Source of the DNA: a virus
DNA length: 64,000 nucleotides
Direction: 5' to 3' (one strand)
IMG/VR virus record: IMGVR_UViG_3300009508_000001
Coordinates: 1 to 64,000 of that record
Shown here: positions 9,077-58,356 of the stretch, one piece after another
How positions within the stretch are numbered: position 1 is the stretch's first letter
Layout of the letters: every line of letters starts with the position of its first letter
Made by a program: the position numbers and the translations under genes
Notes under the pieces: model-generated
Databases searched by the model: none
Told to the model about the DNA's origin: nothing
The model's input: only the letters and a program-made list of their open reading frames with translations

Positions 9077-10213
9077 TTAGTCAACAACAATATCATGCCC
9101 AACTATATCAATTGAATAGCTTTCTGGGTCTTGCAAATATGCTGGTGAACCTGGATCTTTAATTCTTGTGTTTGATTTAAACGCTCTTTCTAAATCTTTT
9201 ACTACTTTACTATTTGTAGTTTTTGTAAGAGCATCAAAATTTTCAAACCCATTAGTTATAGTATATAAATAATAGAGTTTAAAATCAAAATCTTCTTGAT
9301 TTTCTCTCCTTGATTTCATTAATGAATTTTCAGGAGTATTAGTTTCTGGATTTTTAGAAACTATATCAAACATATTTTTTTCCACCTTATTTCTTACATT
9401 ATCTGTAATTTTAAAGTCTTTTATAACTTCAGGTGTTTTTTTAATCTTATCTTTAATTTTAGCTATCCTAGCTTCTTCTGCGTCTTTAGCTTTAGTATTT
9501 TGTTCTGCAAGTTTAGCTTCTTCAGCTTCTATTCTAGTTTTTGCAGCTTCTTTAATACTTGTCATAGCTTCTAGAGAATCTGTAACATCTTCTTCTAGTT
9601 CTATACTTCTTTGTAAAAGTTTTCTAGCTTTTTCATCTGAGTAACCTCTATTCACATAATCTTGATAAATTACTCTTTGTCTTAGATTTTCATCTTCTTT
9701 AAGATTATCTTCTGTAATAGTATCTAGTTGTGCAATTTCACTGTTATTTTTTTCAATTACAGCTTGAGGTATACCTTTTTCTAGTTTAGATAAATATTCT
9801 TTTTGAACATCATTGAATTTACTATCTTGAGTTTTTTCAATCTCTTGTTTAAATAAATTAACAAAAGCATCTTCATCTTCTACTTTAATGTCAGAATCCA
9901 CAGAGAGCAAACCTTTTTCTACAAGTAATGCAGTTATGGAATTAAATAAATTTGGATCTGAAGAAGAATTCTCTACATCATTATCTTGTGTAGATTCATC
10001 CTCTGCTTCATCCTGACTATCTTCATTCCCAACTACGCTCTCTGGATCTAGTTGATCCTCGTCGGTTATTGTATCATTTTCTTCTGATGTTTCAATATCA
10101 GTATTATTTTCATCTTGTTCATCCTCTATTTCAAGGAAAGGATTTATTTCATCTGCTCCAATATCAACTATTGGCGCATCATTAAACAGATCCATGTTTA
10201 AGTTATCTTCCAT
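9077..10213 (-). CDS. Capsid assembly scaffold protein
   Basis: 378 residues. Residues about 1-85 are extremely acidic (many D/E runs). The middle, about 150-265, is a charged coiled coil (EEAKLAEQNTKAKDAEEARI). The C-terminal third is basic to neutral. This acidic plus coiled-coil profile immediately upstream of the capsid gene is typical of phage scaffolds. A perfect host-type promoter lies 40-70 nt upstream of its start, so scaffold and capsid can be transcribed apart from the portal. Confidence 0.7.
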   Translation of the reverse strand: MEDNLNMDLFNDAPIVDIGADEINPFLEIEDEQDENNTDIETSEENDTITDEDQLDPESVVGNEDSQDEAEDESTQDNDVENSSSDPNLFNSITALLVEKGLLSVDSDIKVEDEDAFVNLFKQEIEKTQDSKFNDVQKEYLSKLEKGIPQAVIEKNNSEIAQLDTITEDNLKEDENLRQRVIYQDYVNRGYSDEKARKLLQRSIELEEDVTDSLEAMTSIKEAAKTRIEAEEAKLAEQNTKAKDAEEARIAKIKDKIKKTPEVIKDFKITDNVRNKVEKNMFDIVSKNPETNTPENSLMKSRRENQEDFDFKLYYLYTITNGFENFDALTKTTNSKVVKDLERAFKSNTRIKDPGSPAYLQDPESYSIDIVGHDIVVD

Positions 10214-18925: not shown

Positions 18926-19227
18926 TATAAAAATTCTGGTCTTATATTTCTAAAAATATTTCTATAAAATTTTTCTCTAAATCTTATACTTAAATTTATT
19001 ACATCTTCTTCTGTAACTACACTTTCATCTATTAATGTTACAAATTCTTTAACTATTTTTAAACTTCCAACAGTTAATACTATTCCTAAGTCATAATTTT
19101 TTGTACTATTATAAGTACTTATAAACTCTAAATTAACTTGTGTATGAAAGTATTCATCATTTTTTAATTTATTAATATAATCTATTAATGGTTTAAGTTC
19201 TTTATTTAATATTTTATCAATGTTCAT
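18925..19227 (-). CDS. Small hypothetical protein
   Basis: 100 residues: MNIDKILNKELKPLIDYINK, a beta-stranded centre, then VVTEEDVINLSIRFREKFYRNIF. It overlaps the stop of the chaperonin gene by 11 nt and so should be co-translated with it. Not recognised. Confidence 0.55.
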   Translation of the reverse strand: MNIDKILNKELKPLIDYINKLKNDEYFHTQVNLEFISTYNSTKNYDLGIVLTVGSLKIVKEFVTLIDESVVTEEDVINLSIRFREKFYRNIFRNIRPEFL

Positions 19228-20653
19228 TTACTATTACTGTTTCTGTTGTTAATATTGTTGATGCTACACTTACTGCATTCTTTAAAGCTGATTTAGTTAC
19301 TTTAACAGGATCTATAATATTTTCTAGTTCTTTTAAATTTATATATTTATCTTTATTTATTAATTCAAAAGGTTTAGCTATTGCATTATAAAGAATACTA
19401 TCCTTATCATCTTTTAAATCATATAAAGTAGACCCTCCTCCAGGTATAATTCCTTCTTCTAAGGCCGCTTTAACTGCATTATTTGCATCTTCTATTCTAT
19501 CATACTTCTCTCTAAATTCTAACTCTGAATCAGCTCCTATATAAATAACTCCAACTCCTGTTTTAAACTTAGATATTCTTTCTTTAATTTTTTGTTTATT
19601 ATATGTTGAATTATTTTTAGTAAGATGTTCTAGATTAGAAATATAAGAATTTAATTCTTTTTCATCAAAATTACCATCTTGTATAATTGTAGTATCTTCT
19701 GTTACAATTATTTTATCTGATTGACCTAATTGATTTAAATTAAATGTAGATAAAGTACTTTCAGTGATAATTTCACCTTTAGTATAAACTGCTATATCAT
19801 TAAGATATTGTTTTCTAGATTCTGAGAATCCTGGTGTTTTAATAATTACATTTTTTAAATTTCCAGATTGTAAGTTTCTAAAACAAGTATGTAAAACATC
19901 TTGATTAACTTCTTCTGCTATAATTATTAAAGGTCTTTTAATTCTTGCTACATTATCTAATACTGGTAGTAATTGTTTTGAAGAATTTAATTTACCATCA
20001 AATATAAAATATAATGGTTTATCATATTTAACTTGATTAGCTTCACTATTTATAAAGAAAGAATCTATATATGATGAATTAAAACTATATCCTTCTATAA
20101 ACGATGTATATGTTTTATTTGTTATAGATGGTTCTAATATAATTTCAGAACCTTTACTTTTCTTATATAAGTTAGATATTAATTTAGAAGACTCTATATC
20201 TCCATTAGTTGAAACATTAGCTACTTTAATTATATCTGATTTTTTACATTTAATAGATTTCTTTTCTAGTTTATGTAATATTTCTACAAGATCTAATTGT
20301 AAATCTCTTTGTATTTCAAATCCTGATCTATTTTTCAATTCTTCAAATCCTAAATCTAATATTGCTTTAGCTAATACTGTAGCTGTAGTAGTTCCATCTC
20401 CTGCTTCTTTATTAGTAAGTAAACTAGCTTCTTTAAGCATTTGAGCAGCTATGTTTTCTACAGGATCTAGTAAATTAATACTTTTAGCTACTGTTACTCC
20501 ATCTTTAGTAATAGTGTGACTACCATCATTATTTTCTATAATAACAGTCTTACCATTAGGTCCTAAAGTCGAAGATACAGCCTTAGCTAGTTTATCAAAA
20601 CCTTCTTTAAGTTTAACTTTAGCTGTATCTTCAAAATATAGTTTTTTATTCAT
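19217..20653 (-). CDS. groEL: GroEL-like (group I) chaperonin
   Basis: 478 residues against about 545 for bacterial GroEL. Equatorial ATP motifs are intact: TLGPNGKTV near residue 28, TKDGVTVAKS near 48, AGDGTTTATVLA near 82, and the C-terminal GIIPGGGSTLYDLKD. The missing about 65 residues must come mostly from the intermediate/apical region and the C-terminal tail. It probably helps fold capsid or other virion proteins. No GroES partner is obvious in the window, so it may use the host co-chaperonin or act alone. Confidence 0.92.
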   Translation of the reverse strand: MNKKLYFEDTAKVKLKEGFDKLAKAVSSTLGPNGKTVIIENNDGSHTITKDGVTVAKSINLLDPVENIAAQMLKEASLLTNKEAGDGTTTATVLAKAILDLGFEELKNRSGFEIQRDLQLDLVEILHKLEKKSIKCKKSDIIKVANVSTNGDIESSKLISNLYKKSKGSEIILEPSITNKTYTSFIEGYSFNSSYIDSFFINSEANQVKYDKPLYFIFDGKLNSSKQLLPVLDNVARIKRPLIIIAEEVNQDVLHTCFRNLQSGNLKNVIIKTPGFSESRKQYLNDIAVYTKGEIITESTLSTFNLNQLGQSDKIIVTEDTTIIQDGNFDEKELNSYISNLEHLTKNNSTYNKQKIKERISKFKTGVGVIYIGADSELEFREKYDRIEDANNAVKAALEEGIIPGGGSTLYDLKDDKDSILYNAIAKPFELINKDKYINLKELENIIDPVKVTKSALKNAVSVASTILTTETVIVNEH

Positions 20654-26944: not shown

Positions 26945-26989
26945 TCCAATCAAATATTGATTGCTAATTGTATAAAAATTGAAAAGATA

Positions 26990-27652
26990 ATGAGGAAAGG
27001 AAAAATATATAAAATCACTAATATAATTACAAAAAAGATTTATGTAGGTCAAACTATACAATCTTTAAAAGTTAGATTTAGAAGACATAAAAATGATGCT
27101 AAAAATGGTAAAAAAGGATTTTTATTTAATAGTATTAGAAAACATGGCATATCAAAATTTAAAATTAAATTAATAGAATTATGTGATGTTCAGTTATTAG
27201 ATGATAGAGAATCTTTTTATATATCGAGATACAAATCTACTTCATCAAAAGGTTATAATCTATTACCAGGAGGTAGAAAAACTATGAGGGGAATAAACCA
27301 CTTTAAAGCTGATAAAAAAGAATATAAATTCTATCATATTTCAGGTATTGTAGAAAAACTTATAATATCAGACTTTATATTAAAATATAAGCTTGATAAA
27401 TCAGCAGTGCATAGAGTTTTAAAAAATAAACAAACTCATGTTAAAAATTGGTACTCTGACTTAAATAAAATGTTATTATATACTTTTAAACATAAAGAAG
27501 GTATTATTGAAGAAGGAGTAACCAAAAGAGATTTTAAAAATAAATATAAATTTCTTAATGGAAGTATTACTAATTTAATAATAGGTAATGCTAAAACACA
27601 TAAAGGTTGGTCAGTAGAAATATATGATAAATCTAAAAGATTTAAAGAGTAA
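26990..27652 (+). CDS. GIY-YIG endonuclease, free-standing
   Basis: 220 residues from ATG 26990; the in-frame TTG upstream was rejected because the domain begins at once after MRKGKIYKITN. GIY-YIG motifs: IYKITN, then KIYVGQT about residue 20, arginine in KVRFRRHK, and the IRKHGISKFKIKLIEL segment. The C-terminal part (residues 100-220) looks like DNA-binding repeats with HTH-like SDFILKYKLDKSAVHRVLKN. No intron boundary is seen around it. It is a homing endonuclease that sits next to the structured RNA region. Confidence 0.8.
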   Translation: MRKGKIYKITNIITKKIYVGQTIQSLKVRFRRHKNDAKNGKKGFLFNSIRKHGISKFKIKLIELCDVQLLDDRESFYISRYKSTSSKGYNLLPGGRKTMRGINHFKADKKEYKFYHISGIVEKLIISDFILKYKLDKSAVHRVLKNKQTHVKNWYSDLNKMLLYTFKHKEGIIEEGVTKRDFKNKYKFLNGSITNLIIGNAKTHKGWSVEIYDKSKRFKE

Positions 27653-30155: not shown

Positions 30156-30707
30156 GGGGGCGACTTGGGCTTGACCTTGTATTATACATTATAATATTCA
30201 GCCAGAGACAACTGTAAACATAGGTGAATTTTATAAATGGAAACATTAATAAGACGCAGGAAACTGCACAGATTGAAGCTAATATGAATGTTGTTCACAA
30301 CATTCTAAACTCTGAACCAGTACTACAAGGTAGTTCTTGGTATGGAGATAAATTAGCAATGGTAGCATAATATCATAGGTGAAAAAAGGTTTGTAGTAAC
30401 CGTTATGCATAAATATATCACAGAAACCTTGATGTTACAAGTAAGCTTCTAATACTGATAGCCCAGCCTTTTAAGCTGGAGATGTAACTAAACACACTAA
30501 CTAGAAATAGTAAGGAGAACTGTATGATATATTTTTTATTACCTTTTGGTAATGTATTCTAAGATTTCTTATTTAGATTAAAATAAGTGGTGGAGTATCA
30601 ATTAAGATTGATCCTACGTGCAGAAAAGCACATTAAAAAATTAAAAAGCTGTAAATAATATTATAATTTAAGTATGAGACACGCGGGTTCGAATCCCGCC
30701 GCCTCCA
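30156..30707 (+). ncRNA. ssrA: tmRNA (transfer-messenger RNA)
   Basis: The 5' end GGGGGCG (30156-30162) pairs over 7 bp with CGCCTCC (30700-30706), leaving discriminator A 30707. CCA is not encoded (CTA follows). The T arm is GCGGG-TTCGAAT-CCCGC (30683-30699). The 5' tRNA-like part is GACTTGGGCTTGACC. The long P2 helix is a perfect 11 bp: ATTATAATATT (30188-30198) with AATATTATAAT (30657-30667). A pseudoknot follows the tag: AAGGTTT/AAACCTT interleaved with GTAAC/GTTAC. The tag frame ends ...GDKLAMVA with TAA at 30368-30370; the resume codon is unclear. At 552 nt it is longer than usual bacterial tmRNAs. It should rescue stalled ribosomes with host SmpB. Confidence 0.85.
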
Positions 30708-46071: not shown

Positions 46072-46755
46072 ATGAAAGGTTATATTTACAAAATTACAAA
46101 TTTAAATACCAATAAATATTATATTGGTAGTACAGTTGATTTTAAAACAAGAAAAAAACAACATTTATGGCATTTAAGAGCTAATAAACATGTAAATAAA
46201 CATTTACAGAGTTCTTATAATAAACATGGTGAAGAATTTTTTGAATTTAAAATAATAGCTGAAGTTAATAATATTAAAGAAACTGAACAAGAGTTTCTAG
46301 ATAATTTAGATTTTACAAAATCTTATAATATATCACCAAATTCTGTTGGTGGAGATATAATAAAAACATTTCCATTAAAAAGACAAAAAGAAGTTTATAA
46401 AAAAATATCAGAAAGTAGAAAAGGTAGTTTACCTGGAAATGCTATTTCTGTTAATATAAATGGTGAAATATTTAATTCTTTTAATAAAGCCTCAATTGCT
46501 TTAAATTTACCAGTTACAACTATTAGATATAGATGTAAATCATTAAATAGTAAATTTAGAAATTGGAACATTATAGGAGAAGAAAAAGATGAAAATAAAC
46601 TGTATAAAGAAGGTATTAATCAAGGTCATATAATTATATGTGAACAAAAAGAATTTCCTTCTTATGCAGAAGCAGCAAGATATTATAATATGTCTATAAC
46701 TGCTATTCAAAATAGAGTAAAATCCAAAAATTATCCACAATTTTATAAAAAATAA
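46072..46755 (+). CDS. GIY-YIG homing endonuclease of the thyA intron
   Basis: 227 residues. MKGYIYKITNLNTNKYYIGS carries both GIY and YIG elements, followed by R/H residues in FKTRKKQHLWHL and the SSYNKHGEEFFEFKII segment. The C-terminal half has repeated DNA-binding modules of NUMOD type (SFNKASIALNLPVTTIRYRC; SYAEAARYYNMSITAIQNRV). It cuts intronless thyA to spread the intron, as I-TevI does for td. Its stop lies in intron core sequence. Confidence 0.9.
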   Translation: MKGYIYKITNLNTNKYYIGSTVDFKTRKKQHLWHLRANKHVNKHLQSSYNKHGEEFFEFKIIAEVNNIKETEQEFLDNLDFTKSYNISPNSVGGDIIKTFPLKRQKEVYKKISESRKGSLPGNAISVNINGEIFNSFNKASIALNLPVTTIRYRCKSLNSKFRNWNIIGEEKDENKLYKEGINQGHIIICEQKEFPSYAEAARYYNMSITAIQNRVKSKNYPQFYKK

Positions 46756-48647: not shown

Positions 48648-48884
48648 TGATTAATGTTTGCCCTGATTAAACCTATTTAATTGCTGGAACGTCTTTAAGC
48701 TTATATAACTACAACGTAATCATAAATGATAAGCGTGAATGTTTAAAAATATATAAGATTAGATAATCAGCAGCGAAGCTCTTTTAAAATAGAGAACGTT
48801 CACAGACTATCCCGTGAGGGAGTAAGTATAAATTATTAGTATAAAATTTATATTGAAAAAGTAGGTATTCACGAATTTTTGTTG

Positions 48885-48892
48885 TATCTTTG
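48885..48892 (+). promoter_or_regulatory. -7 box inside intron, before endonuclease
   Basis: TATCTTTG 4 nt before ATG 48897. No TTG occurs at the 20-nt spacing (TAG-like there), so only a half match. If used, the mRNA would be leaderless, like the gene at 22703. Confidence 0.4.
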
Positions 48893-48896
48893 TATT

Positions 48897-49670
48897 ATGA
48901 AGAAACAACTATTAAAATTTGTAAATATAGAAGAACTTAGTTCTACTGGTATTTACAACATAACTTTTAAAGGAACTAATAAAATATATATTGGTTCTAC
49001 TATAGCAGGTTTAAAGTCTAATAAAATTTCTGATAAAGGATTTTATTGTAGATGGTCTAAACATTTAAGATTATTAAAACAAAATATTCATCCTAATAAT
49101 TATTTGCAAAATGCATTTAATAAATATGGTAATGATAATATTGAATTTAATATAATTAAAATATGTATAGATAAAAATAAAATAATAGAATTAGAACAAT
49201 ATTATTTAGATAAATTAAAACCTTATAATAGAAAAAATGGATATAATATTCAAAAAAAAGCAGATAGAGTTGAACTATATAATTTAAATTTAAATAAAAA
49301 GAAAATAGTTCAGTATGATATTAATGGTAACTTTGAAAAAATACATAATAGTTCTTTAGAAGCCTCTAAAGAATTAAATGTAACTTCAAGTTCTATATAT
49401 CATTGTTTGCAATCTGATAATAGAATATGTAAAAATAAACAATTTGTATATTTTACTAAAAATTATCCTAAAAAAATAAAACCTTATATTAAAAAAGTTA
49501 AAACTAGAAAAAAAGTATATCAATATACTAAAGATAAAAAATACATTACTAATTATAATTCTGTTAAAAAAGCAGCAGAATCTGTAAATGGAAGTAGTGG
49601 TACATTATCTTATTATATACGTAAAACTGGTTTTTTCAAAGGTTATTATTGGAGTTATGAACGTGAATAA
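48897..49670 (+). CDS. GIY-YIG homing endonuclease of the ATPase intron
   Basis: 257 residues from ATG 48897; the TTG 18 nt upstream overlaps the -7 box. GIYNITFKGTNKIYIGSTIA holds the GIY/YIG core, with RWSKHLRLLKQNIH and FNKYGNDNIEFNIIKI following. The C-terminal part has modules with DNA-binding character (SLEASKELNVTSSSIYHCL; SVKKAAESVNGSSGTLSYYI). Its stop codon adjoins the P7 strand GATATAGTC. Confidence 0.88.
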   Translation: MKKQLLKFVNIEELSSTGIYNITFKGTNKIYIGSTIAGLKSNKISDKGFYCRWSKHLRLLKQNIHPNNYLQNAFNKYGNDNIEFNIIKICIDKNKIIELEQYYLDKLKPYNRKNGYNIQKKADRVELYNLNLNKKKIVQYDINGNFEKIHNSSLEASKELNVTSSSIYHCLQSDNRICKNKQFVYFTKNYPKKIKPYIKKVKTRKKVYQYTKDKKYITNYNSVKKAAESVNGSSGTLSYYIRKTGFFKGYYWSYERE

Positions 49671-52580: not shown

Positions 52581-53479
52581 CTATAATTAAAAAGAAAAAT
52601 TACACTAAGTTTAGACCTATGGTTAGATCTAGACATCCTTCTCATTCAATATTAAGGTTAAAAAATAGAACTCTACCACTTTTACCATTTAAATCTATTA
52701 TTAGATTAGGATCTACTACAGATCAATCTGATACAGTATCTAATGGAGGTGATAGAATTGAACTTAATACTATTGATGCTATTAGAAATAGTAGTAGTAA
52801 GTTAAGAATGAAACGTTGTTTTGTTAAAGGAAAAGTTAAGACAGCTGTAGGTTACCTATGGTCTGAAAAACTTAACTTTATATTAATGGATTCAAATGAA
52901 GATTTAATATTATCTATTAATGATCTTCAATATCCTATTATTTCTAAATCATTATTTGGTAGTAGAGGTAAAGGTAATACAAAACATAATACTCCTGAAG
53001 AATTGCAAGCTTGGATGAAAGGTAAGAATTGTAAATCTTATATTTTTGAAAAGTATTATAATTACTCTAGAGAATATAGACTTCATGTAAATAGTGAAGG
53101 TTGCTTCTATACTTGTAGAAAAATGCTTAAAAGAGAAACTGAAGATGAAAAAAAATGGTATAGAAACGATGATAACTGCGTTTGGATTATGGAAAACTCA
53201 GAAACTGGGTTGTTTGATAAACCAGTTAATTGGGACGATGTTGTATTACATAGTGTTAAAGCCCTTAATGCTGTTGGACTCGATTTTGGAGCTGTAGATT
53301 TAAGAATTCAATCTTCTACTGATTCTAAAAATAGAAAAAGAGATTATTCTGAATTTATAGTTGTTGAAATAAACTCTGCACCTAGTTTTGGAGATAATCA
53401 AGAAGAATTAACTTTTGTTACTAAACAGTATATAGAAGAAATTCCTAAAATGTTAAAACTTAAATATGACAGAGCCTAA
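52577..53479 (+). CDS. ATP-grasp ligase
   Basis: 300 residues. YPIISKSLFGSRGKGNTKHN is the nucleotide-grasping glycine loop. CKSYIFEKYYNYSREYRLHV, LDFGAVDLRIQ and IVVEINSAPSFGDN hold the Mg/ATP acidic residues (Glu and Asn of EIN) of the RimK-like ATP-grasp family. Family members join a carboxylate to an amine through an acyl-phosphate. Overlaps with both neighbours place it in one operon with two more amidoligases. Confidence 0.8.
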   Translation: MTIIKKKNYTKFRPMVRSRHPSHSILRLKNRTLPLLPFKSIIRLGSTTDQSDTVSNGGDRIELNTIDAIRNSSSKLRMKRCFVKGKVKTAVGYLWSEKLNFILMDSNEDLILSINDLQYPIISKSLFGSRGKGNTKHNTPEELQAWMKGKNCKSYIFEKYYNYSREYRLHVNSEGCFYTCRKMLKRETEDEKKWYRNDDNCVWIMENSETGLFDKPVNWDDVVLHSVKALNAVGLDFGAVDLRIQSSTDSKNRKRDYSEFIVVEINSAPSFGDNQEELTFVTKQYIEEIPKMLKLKYDRA

Positions 53480-54146
53480 AAAAAATTTAGTAATACTAAC
53501 AAATAAAAAATATTTATCAATAGATGTTCAAAGATTTTTTCAAGATAAATATAATTGTACATTTTTAGATAGACCTAATAAAAAATATCCTTTGGCTAGA
53601 ATTGATTTAATATTATTTACTGGAGGTAAAGATGTGAATCCTTATATCTATAAAGAAGATAAGATTCATCATATGACTAGAGTTAATAATAGAAGAGATA
53701 TTACTGAATCAGTAATGTTTAATAAATATCCTGTTACAATACCTAAAATGGGTATTTGTAGGGGTGCTCAATTATTAACAGCTCTATCAGGAGGTAAAGT
53801 TATACAACATGTAACAAATCATCTTTCAAGTCATAATATTATTACATCTGAAGGTAAAACTATTAATGTAATATCTACTCATCATCAAATGATGTATCCT
53901 AATAATATAGATTCTAAACATTACAAATTATTAGGAACTACATTAAAAAAGATATCTACTAGATATGAATCAGGTGAAGGAAAAGATTTCCCAGTGCCTA
54001 AAGATTTTAAAGAGCCAGAAATAGTATATTACAAAAATACTAGATCTTTAGCTATTCAAGGTCATCCTGAAAGAAGTTATTCAAGTAAAGGTTTTAAAGA
54101 ATATAGTTATGAATTATTAAACAAATTATTATTAAATGAGTTATAG
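53466..54146 (+). CDS. Class I glutamine amidotransferase-like / gamma-glutamyl hydrolase-like
   Basis: 226 residues. LFTGGKDVNPYIY is the family's oxyanion region. MGICRGAQLLT carries nucleophile Cys98, and IQGHPERS (about 198-204) carries the His-Glu pair: a complete triad of the peptidase C26/GATase I fold. In the cluster it may hydrolyse gamma-glutamyl links or supply ammonia. It overlaps neighbours by 14 and 11 nt. Confidence 0.85.
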   Translation: MTEPKKNLVILTNKKYLSIDVQRFFQDKYNCTFLDRPNKKYPLARIDLILFTGGKDVNPYIYKEDKIHHMTRVNNRRDITESVMFNKYPVTIPKMGICRGAQLLTALSGGKVIQHVTNHLSSHNIITSEGKTINVISTHHQMMYPNNIDSKHYKLLGTTLKKISTRYESGEGKDFPVPKDFKEPEIVYYKNTRSLAIQGHPERSYSSKGFKEYSYELLNKLLLNEL

Positions 54147-54954
54147 TATAAAAAATGTACTTATAGGATCAGATCCTGAAATTTTTATTAAAGACAAATC
54201 AGGTGAATTATCATCTGCAATTAATCTTTTTAAAGGTACGAAAGATAATCCTATAGATATAGGTAAAGGTTGTTTTGTTCAAGAAGATAATATTCTTGTT
54301 GAATTTAATACTCCACCTACTAACAATTTAGAAGTGTTCTTAAAATCAGTAGACCATTCTAAAAATTATATAGAAACAATTTTAGCTCCTTTAGATAAGG
54401 AATTATATTATTCTAGTAGTGAAATAGCTACTAAAAAGATATTAGAAGATGAGAAAGCAAATATATTTGGTTGCTCACCATCTTATAATGTTTTAGATGA
54501 ACAATCAGTTGAACTCAACATTGAATTATTATCAGAAGAAGATAGAAATTTAAGATCTGCTGGGATGCATATTCATATAGGTTATGAATATCCTGAGGAA
54601 GAAACTAACGATAGATTAGTACTTTGTTTTGAACTGTTTGTTACTTTACCTTTAATTAATCAAGATTTAGATGTGCATAATCGTAGATTATTGTATGGAA
54701 AAATTGGTGATTCTAGAGATAAAGATTATGGAGTAGAATGTAGATCTCTAGGAGGTTATTTTCTACGTAATGAAGAATCTATTACTGATGTATGGAATAG
54801 AACCTTAAAAGCAATTGAATTTGCAAATAATAGTAAGAAAACTAATAAAGAATTAAAAGAATTAGTAGAATCATGTTTAAACAGTGACAAAACTGTTAAC
54901 TTAAAGAACTTAGATAAAGTTCTTAATAACTTAAATGATAAACAATTAGCTTAA
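54136..54954 (+). CDS. Amidoligase, phiEco32-type COOH-NH2 ligase
   Basis: 272 residues. IGSDPEIFIKDKSGEL near the start, FVQEDNILVEFNTPP near 57, LRSAGMHIHIGYEYP near 136 and YGVECRSLGGYFL near 196 follow the glutamine-synthetase-fold COOH-NH2 ligase family described in phage phiEco32. Acidic and His residues in these segments are the ATP/Mg ligands. It should form an amide bond on a small molecule, peptide or protein; substrate unknown. Confidence 0.82.
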   Translation: MSYSIKNVLIGSDPEIFIKDKSGELSSAINLFKGTKDNPIDIGKGCFVQEDNILVEFNTPPTNNLEVFLKSVDHSKNYIETILAPLDKELYYSSSEIATKKILEDEKANIFGCSPSYNVLDEQSVELNIELLSEEDRNLRSAGMHIHIGYEYPEEETNDRLVLCFELFVTLPLINQDLDVHNRRLLYGKIGDSRDKDYGVECRSLGGYFLRNEESITDVWNRTLKAIEFANNSKKTNKELKELVESCLNSDKTVNLKNLDKVLNNLNDKQLA

Positions 54955-54964
54955 AATAAATTAA

Positions 54965-56803
54965 ATGAAAACAATCTTAATATTAATATTAATACATTAT
55001 GTATTATTACTCGTAAGAAAGAATAAAAATTCATCAGTTTTATCTTGTGGTTTATTTGGATGGGTAGGAAGTAGCTCAGATAAATTTTCTAAAGATAAAT
55101 TTGATAAATTAGGTATGTATAATGTAGAGAGAGGTAAACACTCTTGTGGAGTTGCTGTAAATGGTGAGTTATACAAAGGTATTGGAGTGATATCTGAATA
55201 TCAAGATTATATAATCAAAAATACAACTCCTCATCCAAAAGAATCTACAGTAGTTATAGGTCATACTAGACATGCTACAGTAGGTAAACATACTATTTCT
55301 GCTGCTCACCCTTTTAAATTTGATTATGGTGAAGAAGGTTATTTTATAGGTGCTCATAATGGAACACTTAAAAATTATCATCAAATAGCTAGAGAATATG
55401 GAATTGATGCTACTGGTAAAATTGATAGTCAAATATTATTAGAAATTATATCCAAAGATGATGCTAATATTAAAGTTTTAGAACAGTATTATGGTGCTGC
55501 TGCATTATTAATGCATAGTTCTGAAAACCCTGATACTATGTATTTATTTAGAGGTAAATCTAAACAAGATACTTTTACTAATACTTATGAAAGGGACGAA
55601 AGACCTTTATATTATTGGCAAGAGAATGATGGTAGCATGTATATTTCATCTTTAAAAGATTCATTATTAGCAATAATTAATGTTGAAGAGGATAAAAAAA
55701 ATATATTTGAAGTTGCTCCTAATAGAATCTATGAGATAAAAGCTGGTAAAATAGTTAAAAAATGTGTTATAGATAGAAGTAATGTTATTGACTATTATGA
55801 AACTAAAAAGAAAGAGTTTGCTAATACTACTAAACCAAAATCTACTACAAATAGTAGAATAGGTTATAATAGAACATTAGATTCAAATTCTAATGATGAT
55901 ATGAATACTAATGATCACGCTATAAATAATTTATTTTATGAAAAGAAATATATTAAAAATACGTATCAAGAAATCAACTTTAACAAACTAAGATGGTTTG
56001 ATTCTGAAAATAAAAGAGTTAGTGGTATTCACATATTTATAGATCAAATTGGTTATGTTAAAATTGGAGATGATATTAATAAACTTAAAAGTAAATTATC
56101 AGATTTTAGTTTTTTAGATTCTTCTTTAACCCAGCCTGAAAATATCAATTTTGGAAATATCGAAGATGCAGATTTATTTTATTTTCATAATGGAGTTCTT
56201 TTAGAAACAGAAGAAGACTATATGTTTTGTCTTAATCCTTCATTAGCTAGAAAAAAAGAACCTACATTTGAAGATTATTCTGACATGTCTGTTCATCCTA
56301 TTATTGATTTAGATAGGATAAAAAAAGAGGATGTTATAACAAGAGCTAAACAAGCTATTACTAAAGATAGTAAAATGTTTAGTGGTCAAATAATAATGGC
56401 TGGAAGTTATGTTGTTTATACTGTCCATAATGGTATATTAACCAAAGCATCCTTAAAAGATGAAATGATAGAATATGACAGTGCTAATTTTAATACTCTT
56501 GATATTTTTGAAAACGCCTCTATAACTTCTTCTAAACTTGAAGATGAAGAAGAGGATGATGTAGAAGATTCTACTTTTGAAGAAGAAATTAATTCTATGA
56601 TGGAATTAGGTAGTATAGATGAAATAGATACTGTATTTGAAGTAATGTCTAATTTTGACGCAGCTATAGAAAGCGTACAAGAATTAAAAGAGTATAAGTC
56701 AAATAGTAAATTAACTAATATGATTATAGAGTTTACAGAAACTTTAGAAAATGGCTTAAAACCAATTTCAGAAGCAGTAAATTCTATTAATCAAAATGTG
56801 TAA
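54965..56803 (+). CDS. Class II glutamine amidotransferase-domain protein
   Basis: 612 residues. An Ntn-type domain starts at Cys28 (SCGLFGWVGSS), with KHSCGVAVNG, IGHTRHATVG, FIGAHNGTLKNYHQI and IDSQILLEII as in GFAT/PurF-type GATases. The N-terminal Cys must be exposed, yet 27 residues precede it, including a hydrophobic MKTILILILIHYVLLLVRK; a propeptide or processed anchor is implied. The C-terminal about 300 residues are acidic and unrecognised. It releases ammonia from glutamine, presumably for the cluster. Confidence 0.8.
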   Translation: MKTILILILIHYVLLLVRKNKNSSVLSCGLFGWVGSSSDKFSKDKFDKLGMYNVERGKHSCGVAVNGELYKGIGVISEYQDYIIKNTTPHPKESTVVIGHTRHATVGKHTISAAHPFKFDYGEEGYFIGAHNGTLKNYHQIAREYGIDATGKIDSQILLEIISKDDANIKVLEQYYGAAALLMHSSENPDTMYLFRGKSKQDTFTNTYERDERPLYYWQENDGSMYISSLKDSLLAIINVEEDKKNIFEVAPNRIYEIKAGKIVKKCVIDRSNVIDYYETKKKEFANTTKPKSTTNSRIGYNRTLDSNSNDDMNTNDHAINNLFYEKKYIKNTYQEINFNKLRWFDSENKRVSGIHIFIDQIGYVKIGDDINKLKSKLSDFSFLDSSLTQPENINFGNIEDADLFYFHNGVLLETEEDYMFCLNPSLARKKEPTFEDYSDMSVHPIIDLDRIKKEDVITRAKQAITKDSKMFSGQIIMAGSYVVYTVHNGILTKASLKDEMIEYDSANFNTLDIFENASITSSKLEDEEEDDVEDSTFEEEINSMMELGSIDEIDTVFEVMSNFDAAIESVQELKEYKSNSKLTNMIIEFTETLENGLKPISEAVNSINQNV

Positions 56804-56811
56804 TAATAACA

Positions 56812-58356
56812 ATGGATAAAAACAGAATTATTAAAACTTTTACAGGTAAAAAAGCAAAAAGATCAGACTGTAAAAGAATAAGAGGTCAATATTATTTAGT
56901 TGGTGATGTTTCAATAAAAGATAGTGGTGAATGCTATAAAATTGAAGATCAATATCATAGATTTAATAATGGTCTTATAGAATATGATCATAATGTAAAA
57001 AAATATGTTTTAATTCATAAAAATCATTTAAAATCAGGTATTGTAGATATTAATAATGAAGAACCTATTATAGGTTTTTATACACCTAATTTAGTTGAAA
57101 ATGTTGTTCTACGTGATGATCCTAATAAAGTATCTAAAGATTTACATTGTATATCTGAAGAAATAGCTTTAAAATTAGGATATAAAGAACGTTTAGGAGA
57201 TGGTATTTTTTATAGTACTAAACATTCATCTATTACAGCAAAGTTTCTTAATGAAATTAGTAATAAAATTATTAATAAATCAAGATTACCTTATGATAGT
57301 AGATTTTCTCAAGGGATAACTAAAAATATATTTAATTCTCATTTTAAACCAGATTACTCTAATAATCAGTTAAATGTTTTAGGTGATTGGTTAGAAGATA
57401 ATGGAATTACTTTTGGTGTAGAATTTGAAACTTCTACAGGTTATGTTGCTGAAAGATTATGTTATAAATATGGTGTTTTAGCTTTAAGAGATGGTAGTAT
57501 TGACGGTTTAGAATATGTTACTATACCTTTATCTGGTAAAAAAGGTTTATATGCTTTAAAAGGTATTTGTGAAGAACTTAAAAAGCGTACTAAATTTGAT
57601 ATAAAATGTGCATTGCATATTCACGTAGGAGGTCTTAAAAGAGAAGAAAATTCTATATTAGCTTCTTATAATTTAGGATATCTTTTACAAGATGAATTAT
57701 TTGAAATGCAACCTTTTTACAAAAGAGGTAATACAGGTTATCATAATAATCCTAGAGAAAAAGATTATTCTAAAAAAATTGCTAAATCTGTTCATGATAA
57801 TATTAATGAACCTAAAACTTTAAAAGAAAAGTTTGCTAGATTATTTTATATGGCTTCTGACAGTAGAAGTTATGATAATTATAATAATGATCTTAAAAAA
57901 GTTAAAAAGCATCCTAGTGATCCTAAAGGTACATCTAAATGGAATATTCATTCTAGATATACTTGGTTAAATTTAGTACCTATAATTTTTGGTAATAAGA
58001 AAACTTTAGAATTTAGACAACATTCACCAACGTTTGAATTTGAAAAAGTAGTTAATTTTTTAATATTCTGTTCTACATTTGTTAAATTTGTAAATATTAA
58101 TTCTGATAAACTAGCTGATAATACTTCAGATTTGTATAAAGAATTAAAATCTTCAAGTAATAAATTAGAATATGTTATTAAGAAATCATTACCTCTTCTT
58201 AAATTTAAGGATATTATTGAAAGATATGTATCTTATAATTCTTTAAGAACTAAAATAATGGAAACTCTTAAAGCTAAAAAAGATTATTTAGGTAAAAATG
58301 AAGCTAAATTTGATTCTATGTATGGAGCTTTAACTAAAGATAATTTTTGGAATTAA
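56812..58356 (+). CDS. Second amidoligase (Amidoligase_2 type)
   Basis: 514 residues. The C-terminal domain has ITFGVEFETSTGYV (about residue 198), LALRDGSIDGLEYVTIPLSG (about 223) and CALHIHVGGLKREENS (about 264), the Glu, Asp and His motifs of the GS-fold amidoligase family. NIHSRYTWLNL and LEFRQHSPTFEF supply later active-site positions. The N-terminal about 190 residues are a separate domain. Second ligase of this fold in the operon; the next gene starts within its stop codon. Confidence 0.78.
   Translation: MDKNRIIKTFTGKKAKRSDCKRIRGQYYLVGDVSIKDSGECYKIEDQYHRFNNGLIEYDHNVKKYVLIHKNHLKSGIVDINNEEPIIGFYTPNLVENVVLRDDPNKVSKDLHCISEEIALKLGYKERLGDGIFYSTKHSSITAKFLNEISNKIINKSRLPYDSRFSQGITKNIFNSHFKPDYSNNQLNVLGDWLEDNGITFGVEFETSTGYVAERLCYKYGVLALRDGSIDGLEYVTIPLSGKKGLYALKGICEELKKRTKFDIKCALHIHVGGLKREENSILASYNLGYLLQDELFEMQPFYKRGNTGYHNNPREKDYSKKIAKSVHDNINEPKTLKEKFARLFYMASDSRSYDNYNNDLKKVKKHPSDPKGTSKWNIHSRYTWLNLVPIIFGNKKTLEFRQHSPTFEFEKVVNFLIFCSTFVKFVNINSDKLADNTSDLYKELKSSSNKLEYVIKKSLPLLKFKDIIERYVSYNSLRTKIMETLKAKKDYLGKNEAKFDSMYGALTKDNFWN

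Follow-up and report, generated by a model that had tools for sequence, protein, structure and literature searches.

A one-piece tmRNA gene in a crAss-like phage, with an elongated tag and a conserved peptide core

The segment at positions 30156-30707 of the window (the whole 64,000-nt stretch that was analysed, which belongs to a 101,615-bp virus record) is best explained, with a probability of roughly 0.8, as a one-piece tmRNA gene whose tag would join a degradation-type end to a core serving as a second recognition site. A tmRNA rescues ribosomes that are stuck and adds a tag to the protein left incomplete. The carrier is a Crassvirales (crAss-like) phage: the window encodes a crAss-type major capsid protein (PF23898 Crass_capsid, E 4.6e-186), and portal and terminase matches are also present. 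The unusual features are the length of the tag, 26-50 residues among the phage genes, and a conserved Q[VI]xANM core that precedes the hydrophobic-Ala end.

The earlier note, made from the letters alone, had placed the gene exactly in both coordinates and size, and the 7-bp acceptor, complete T arm and perfect 11-bp P2 that it described are all present (Table 1). The tRNA-like domain is complete (7-bp acceptor stem, G3.U70, A73 and T arm). In the tag frame, which closes with a terminal stop, an A at position -4 sets the resume codon; this base is a known frame determinant in Escherichia coli tmRNA (PMC2481249). CCA is absent from the 3' end of the gene, where the bases after A73 (30707) are CTA. 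With respect to the tmRNA pseudoknots PK1-PK4, the window gene has one clear pseudoknotted module.

Table 1. Coordinates of the tmRNA gene and its parts, of other genes in the window and of stand-alone copies of the module.
Feature	Position	Strand	Evidence
tmRNA gene, 552 nt, G1 to discriminator A73	30156-30707	+	sequence, RF00023 match, homologues
Acceptor stem, 5' strand GGGGGCG, G3 paired with U70	30156-30162	+	7/7 pairs; covariation across the 39 distinct genes
Acceptor stem, 3' strand CGCCTCC	30700-30706	+	7/7 pairs with 30156-30162
D-loop-like segment ACTTGGGCTTGAC (host counterpart ACTGGTTTTGACA)	30163-30175	+	sequence comparison
P2 helix, 5' strand ATTATAATATT	30188-30198	+	11 bp; in relatives, equivalent position with other sequence
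P2 helix, 3' strand AATATTATAAT	30657-30667	+	perfect 11-bp pairing with 30188-30198
Context upstream of resume codon TTTTATAAAT, U-5 A-4 A-3	30229-30238	+	invariant across phage relatives
Tag reading frame, 43 codons and TAA, GNINKTQETAQIEANMNVVHNILNSEPVLQGSSWYGDKLAMVA	30239-30370	+	stop at 30368-30370; relatives compared
Conserved tag core AQIEANMNVVHNILN	30266-30310	+	family comparison; helix predicted
Pseudoknotted module, common to stand-alone phage RNAs	30376-30534	+	pairing and motif searches
Further structured segment 3' of the module, GUGGUGGAG...CUACGUGCAGAAAAGCACAUU, candidate pseudoknot region	30587-30634	+	sequence; counterparts in relatives by eye
T arm GCGGGTTCGAATCCCGC (GCGGG-TTCGAAT-CCCGC), complete	30683-30699	+	sequence, family comparison
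GroEL-like chaperonin gene	19217-20653	-	PF00118 E 6e-42, phrog_5725
Gene cluster: class I glutamine amidotransferase (peptidase C26 type), possible COOH-NH2 ligase, class II glutamine amidotransferase, amidoligase	53466-58356	+	
GIY-YIG endonuclease-like gene	26957-27652	+	
GIY-YIG endonuclease-like gene	46072-46755	+	
GIY-YIG endonuclease-like gene	48879-49670	+	
Stand-alone motif copy (example)	L166:372-499		
Stand-alone motif copy (example)	L151:10161-10293		
Stand-alone motif copy (example)	L153:9116-9242		

Is this anatomy maintained in other phages? Homologues were found by blastn in the Cellulophaga phages phi14:2, phi38:1, phi40:1 and Calle and in Flavobacterium FpV-type phages, and many more by searching IMG/VR with DNA patterns; a large-gene query found no relatives. 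The 64 loci retained comprise 39 distinct complete genes, and the closest named relative of the window RNA is that of phi14:2 (Crassvirales, Steigviridae). Hosts of the named relatives are Cellulophaga and Flavobacterium. The acceptor forms 7/7 pairs in 39/39 distinct genes, in a final gene table that demanded a perfect acceptor beginning GGG, and pairs 4-7 covary (e.g. GGGGGTG/CACCTCC, GGGCCCG/CGGGTCC and GGGGCAT/ATGCTCC). An earlier scan that required just 6/7 pairs returned 7 pairs in every gene except L006, where the match was spurious and the true acceptor, located later, is GGGCCTG/CAGGTCC. G3.U70 and A73 are unchanged in all 39. P2 spans at least 10 bp at nt 29-34 in most phage members, with differing sequences, and the longest helix averages 10.4 in the phage family as against 7.4 in shuffles. 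Bases -5/-4/-3 are U/A/A, and the resume codon is GGA or GGC followed by AAC or AAT, in 39/39 genes. It is this comparison across the family that establishes the window gene, though highly divergent, as a genuine tmRNA. In one relative, L009 (tag 9210-9323, minus strand), the acceptor strands match, but a T arm cannot be recognised ahead of the 3' acceptor, which suggests a tmRNA that is degenerate, rearranged or misassembled.

Standard tools miss such genes or shorten their tags. For the check that had been proposed with Infernal and ARAGORN, a restricted cmscan of the window did give an RF00023 match over the whole model, but at 24.5 bits against a cut-off of 47; neither Rfam at its curated gathering cut-off nor ARAGORN in a default run reported the gene. 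The gathering score is a detection rule, not a defining feature of tmRNA. The 24.5 bits by themselves prove little because an unrelated genome scores equally, and the Rfam score as sole proof was dropped, as equally weak matches occur in another genome and the weak-match control set includes archaea. The note had held that lack of an above-threshold match, together with loss of P2 and of acceptor covariation, would count against the gene; the first of these was seen, the acceptor covaries and P2 is kept in most relatives. Some relatives are recognised as tmRNA by ARAGORN or Rfam: the loci that pass the cut-off include L002, L003, L004 and L162, and, among the named phages, the Calle, phi38:1 and FpV genes pass it and phi14:2 falls one bit short. 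ARAGORN itself called the full 30-residue tag of L020; in most other phage members its tag start falls inside the true tag. The automatic calls for Cellulophaga phage tmRNAs, GSSVQKLAMVA and AQIEANMEAVNAILNLEVAVGV, begin inside the long tag in this way. For Calle, the ARAGORN resume codon GCA, at the start of the core, was rejected in favour of the position upstream of it, where -5U/-4A/-3A and GGN-AAY never vary. Under-reporting of phage tmRNAs, and of the tags that they encode, is a probable result of genes missed and tags truncated in this way.

Could the resemblance be due to chance, or the locus be the degenerate relic of a tmRNA that is now dead? Its Rfam score, on a par with weak matches in unrelated genomes, would fit, as would the finding that 152 of 5000 shuffles give a frame as long, which makes frame length alone mildly unusual. 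The intact acceptor stem, T arm and P2, the tag of phi14:2 with 59.5% identity to that of the window and the family-wide constraint argue against chance or a relic, a reading that is hardly credible.

The window tag has 43 residues and ends YGDKLAMVA*. The note had read the end of the frame correctly as GDKLAMVA, and rightly as differing from the host type, but missed the length, and LAMVA itself departs only modestly from the hydrophobic-Ala ending that is usual. In a comparison of tags across related phages, as had been suggested, the 33 distinct tags of complete phage genes span 26-50 residues, with the core nearly universal, and end in AA (28), VA (4) or GV (1). Bacterial counterparts were sampled in 31 Bacteroidota tmRNAs (30 from Flavobacteriaceae and one Prolixibacteraceae assembly). 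ARAGORN assigns a 9-residue tag of GENNYALAA type to 29 of these and an 8-residue tag to L096; in L083 it chose a different frame, and reading by eye from the customary resume context gives GENNYALAA. The commonest length for a tmRNA tag is 10 residues (PMC11915505). The phage RNA shares with the bacterial one-piece tmRNA (RF00023, Flavobacteriaceae type) the TLD with G3.U70 and A73, the P2 helix and the hydrophobic-Ala end. The host resume context is TTTAAAC followed by GGC, and host tags begin from UUUAAAC followed by GGN, as in phages. The phage RNA differs in the 26-50 residues of its tag versus 9 in likely hosts, in the Q[VI]xANM core, which is absent from those hosts, and, for the window gene, in lying under the Rfam cut-off.

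The core, with consensus Q[VI]xANMx[VK]V[HFY][NS][IL][LI], is found in nearly all phage tags. Q[VIL]xANM is present in 35 of 36 phage tags selected without reference to it, many of which are near-identical, so that distinct core sequences number 22. In this set the pN/pS of the core, calculated pairwise and ignoring relatedness, is 0.45 in the tag frame, against 0.92 and 1.63 when the other two frames are read; core columns outside any search pattern yield 0.57 in the tag frame, against 0.72 and 1.58. The core is conserved as a peptide. AlphaFold2 predicts a helix over tag residues 8-25 (mean pLDDT 78 in residues 11-20, lower elsewhere), a hint that the core is probably helical. Two phage tmRNAs are without it: L030:2559-2705 (minus strand), with a 49-residue tag, and L162:557-1040, with a 25-residue tag, read by eye, that ends AVRMAA.

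Was the core instead kept for RNA structure, as a P5-like hairpin within the frame of a working tmRNA whose long tag has no peptide role? The window core can form the hairpin GAATGTTG-TTCA-CAACATTC, as read from its letters, at the place to which Infernal assigns P5. Change in the core nevertheless follows a codon-like pattern, in which codons for Ala, Asn, Gln, Val, Ser and Leu vary synonymously; the lower pN/pS is confined to the tag frame, and no such hairpin stands out by eye in Calle or FpV4. A purely structural role is unlikely. Selection on a peptide could also arise if the ATG in ANM were an independent start and the RNA gave, also or instead, a small free protein. The Met codon is invariant in all core-bearing members, but conservation reaches upstream of the ATG (Q, A and N), up to the resume codon, and evidence for a separate start at this ATG was not found; such a product is very improbable.

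Where else does the core occur? A strict pattern gave no genuine instance in 84,980 bacterial and archaeal species and a looser pattern none in 395 Bacteroidia genomes, although divergent forms could escape both patterns. Pattern matches in protein-coding sequence were discarded as chance, and so were all 13 matches in the bacterial and archaeal set and both of those in the Bacteroidia genomes. Elsewhere in the window phage the core is absent from all six frames of the whole record. A tblastn search of named phages with the tag found phi14:2 only, plus one insignificant match, and a PDB search gave no meaningful match. The tmRNAs of phi14:2 and of phi38:1 and Calle (both Pervagoviridae) are homologous RNAs with the same frame and core; that of Calle is annotated in MT732432 and mentioned in PMC8776804.

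How might the RNA act? Its expression, charging, SmpB use, tagging, proteolysis and core role are what we infer from the features above. Host processing and CCA addition would yield the mature RNA, to be charged with alanine via G3.U70 and bound by host SmpB, which must serve because the phage record has no SmpB gene. The RNA would then enter ribosomes stalled on truncated messages, translation would switch to the GGA codon at 30239, and the stalled chain would gain Ala and the 43-residue tag. The tag is modular: a short start (GN) leads into the core, which is probably helical, and a variable linker and the hydrophobic-Ala end follow; by analogy with ordinary ssrA tags this end is probably a degradation signal for host proteases. 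Judged by its conservation, the core probably adds another recognition site, to be read by an adaptor, by a Lon-like protease or by a protein of the phage. A bolder and tentative proposal is that the core is a phage-specific address, by which stalled chains would be read by a receptor of the phage's choosing (its own protein, a host adaptor or an alternative protease) and their fate diverted from the host 9-residue route. The roles suggested from the sequence at the outset, to retag stalled proteins or to take the place of host tmRNA, are plausible.

A locus that acts mainly as a competitor or decoy, titrating SmpB or host tmRNA function, would resemble the TLD-only tmRNA of DS6A (PMC4131195, PMC11915505). 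An RNA of that kind inhibits tmRNA, according to work cited in these two papers. Here selection maintains the resume context, the tag frame and the stop codon, none of which a decoy requires, and this role is improbable.

tmRNAs in phages are known: 10 were listed in one study (PMC4131195), 402 of 18,146 phage genomes carried one in another (PMC9004378) and 79 unique phage tmRNA sequences were given in a third (PMC11915505). Bacillus phage G, the mycobacteriophage Bxz1 group, DS6A and Melnitz likewise have tmRNA genes in their genomes (PMC4131195, PMC9004378, PMC11915505), but these phages have other hosts, the Melnitz tmRNA is two-piece and that of DS6A is a TLD only. No description of a long conserved phage tag was found in the open-access literature. 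The best precedent known for the extended phage tag may be mf-SsrA of Mesoplasma florum, an elongated ssrA tag read by Lon and tied to a protease change to Lon (PMC9382460); mf-SsrA differs in ending NYAFA, in being bacterial-encoded, in a class without active ClpXP, and in having no common core. In phages of several families, crAss-like phages included, the tag exceeds the commonest length of 10 residues by a factor of three to five and has a conserved peptide core, which suggests an altered fate of stalled proteins during infection. The core is a short peptide and can be tested directly.

At 552 nt the window tmRNA is the longest of the 39 distinct genes (range 319-552 nt), in line with the earlier remark on its size. 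The processed RNAs of phi14:2 and phi38:1 would measure 469 nt and about 360 nt. The extra length comes largely from the pseudoknotted module 3' of the tag stop. Here AAAAAAGGUUU (30382-30392) pairs with AAACCUU (30424-30430), and AAAUAUAUCACAG (30411-30423) pairs with CUGUAUGAUAUAUUU (30520-30534), the two pairings being interleaved. Part of the downstream pseudoknot described in the note is a separate module that also occurs outside tmRNAs. The stand-alone motif, GUGAAGCUGUA ... GAAAAAAGGUU..AGUA ... CAGAAACCUUGAAAGACCCGAA, is closed by a variable P1. More than 40 phage contigs carry it alone, often close to tRNA genes. It occurs in two circularly permuted orders, and a permuted form lies inside crAss-type tmRNAs. 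Across 25 of the stand-alone copies, pairs form in 93.5% of cells; their covariation score of 0.49 compares with 0.07-0.14 for slid versions and was reached by 0/500 shuffles. Having been included in the search pattern, the long pseudoknot stem shows little variation; support from covariation comes from the other three helices. Against Rfam the stand-alone module had no match at gathering level, and by E-value no plausible family emerged; it possibly constitutes an undescribed RNA class.

An intron as the cause of the window gene's length was rejected, its T loop being intact and the extra length lying largely in the module. Two other phage tmRNAs seem to carry introns. In L016 (785-1010) a group I intron (RF00028, 82.8 bits) appears to interrupt the T loop of a phage tmRNA, and L010 has, from about 4990, an apparent group I intron in the T loop, judged from motif and acceptor strand, the latter lying 1069 nt past the resume codon. 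Group I introns are already known in bacterial tmRNAs (PMC11915505).

Several other features of the window stand out. Directly past the tmRNA, the non-coding segment 30880-31110 has a long inverted repeat, GACAGUAUUA...UAAUACUGUC, and a folding z-score of -2.95; it has no match in named phages. A GroEL-like chaperonin gene is also present. The amidotransferase and amidoligase cluster, whose possible COOH-NH2 ligase lies just under its cut-off, suggests a surface or peptide-modification pathway. Among the three GIY-YIG-like genes, that at 48879-49670 is just under the cut-off but has NUMOD1, and one of the three directly follows a thymidylate synthase gene, an arrangement like that of intron or homing elements.
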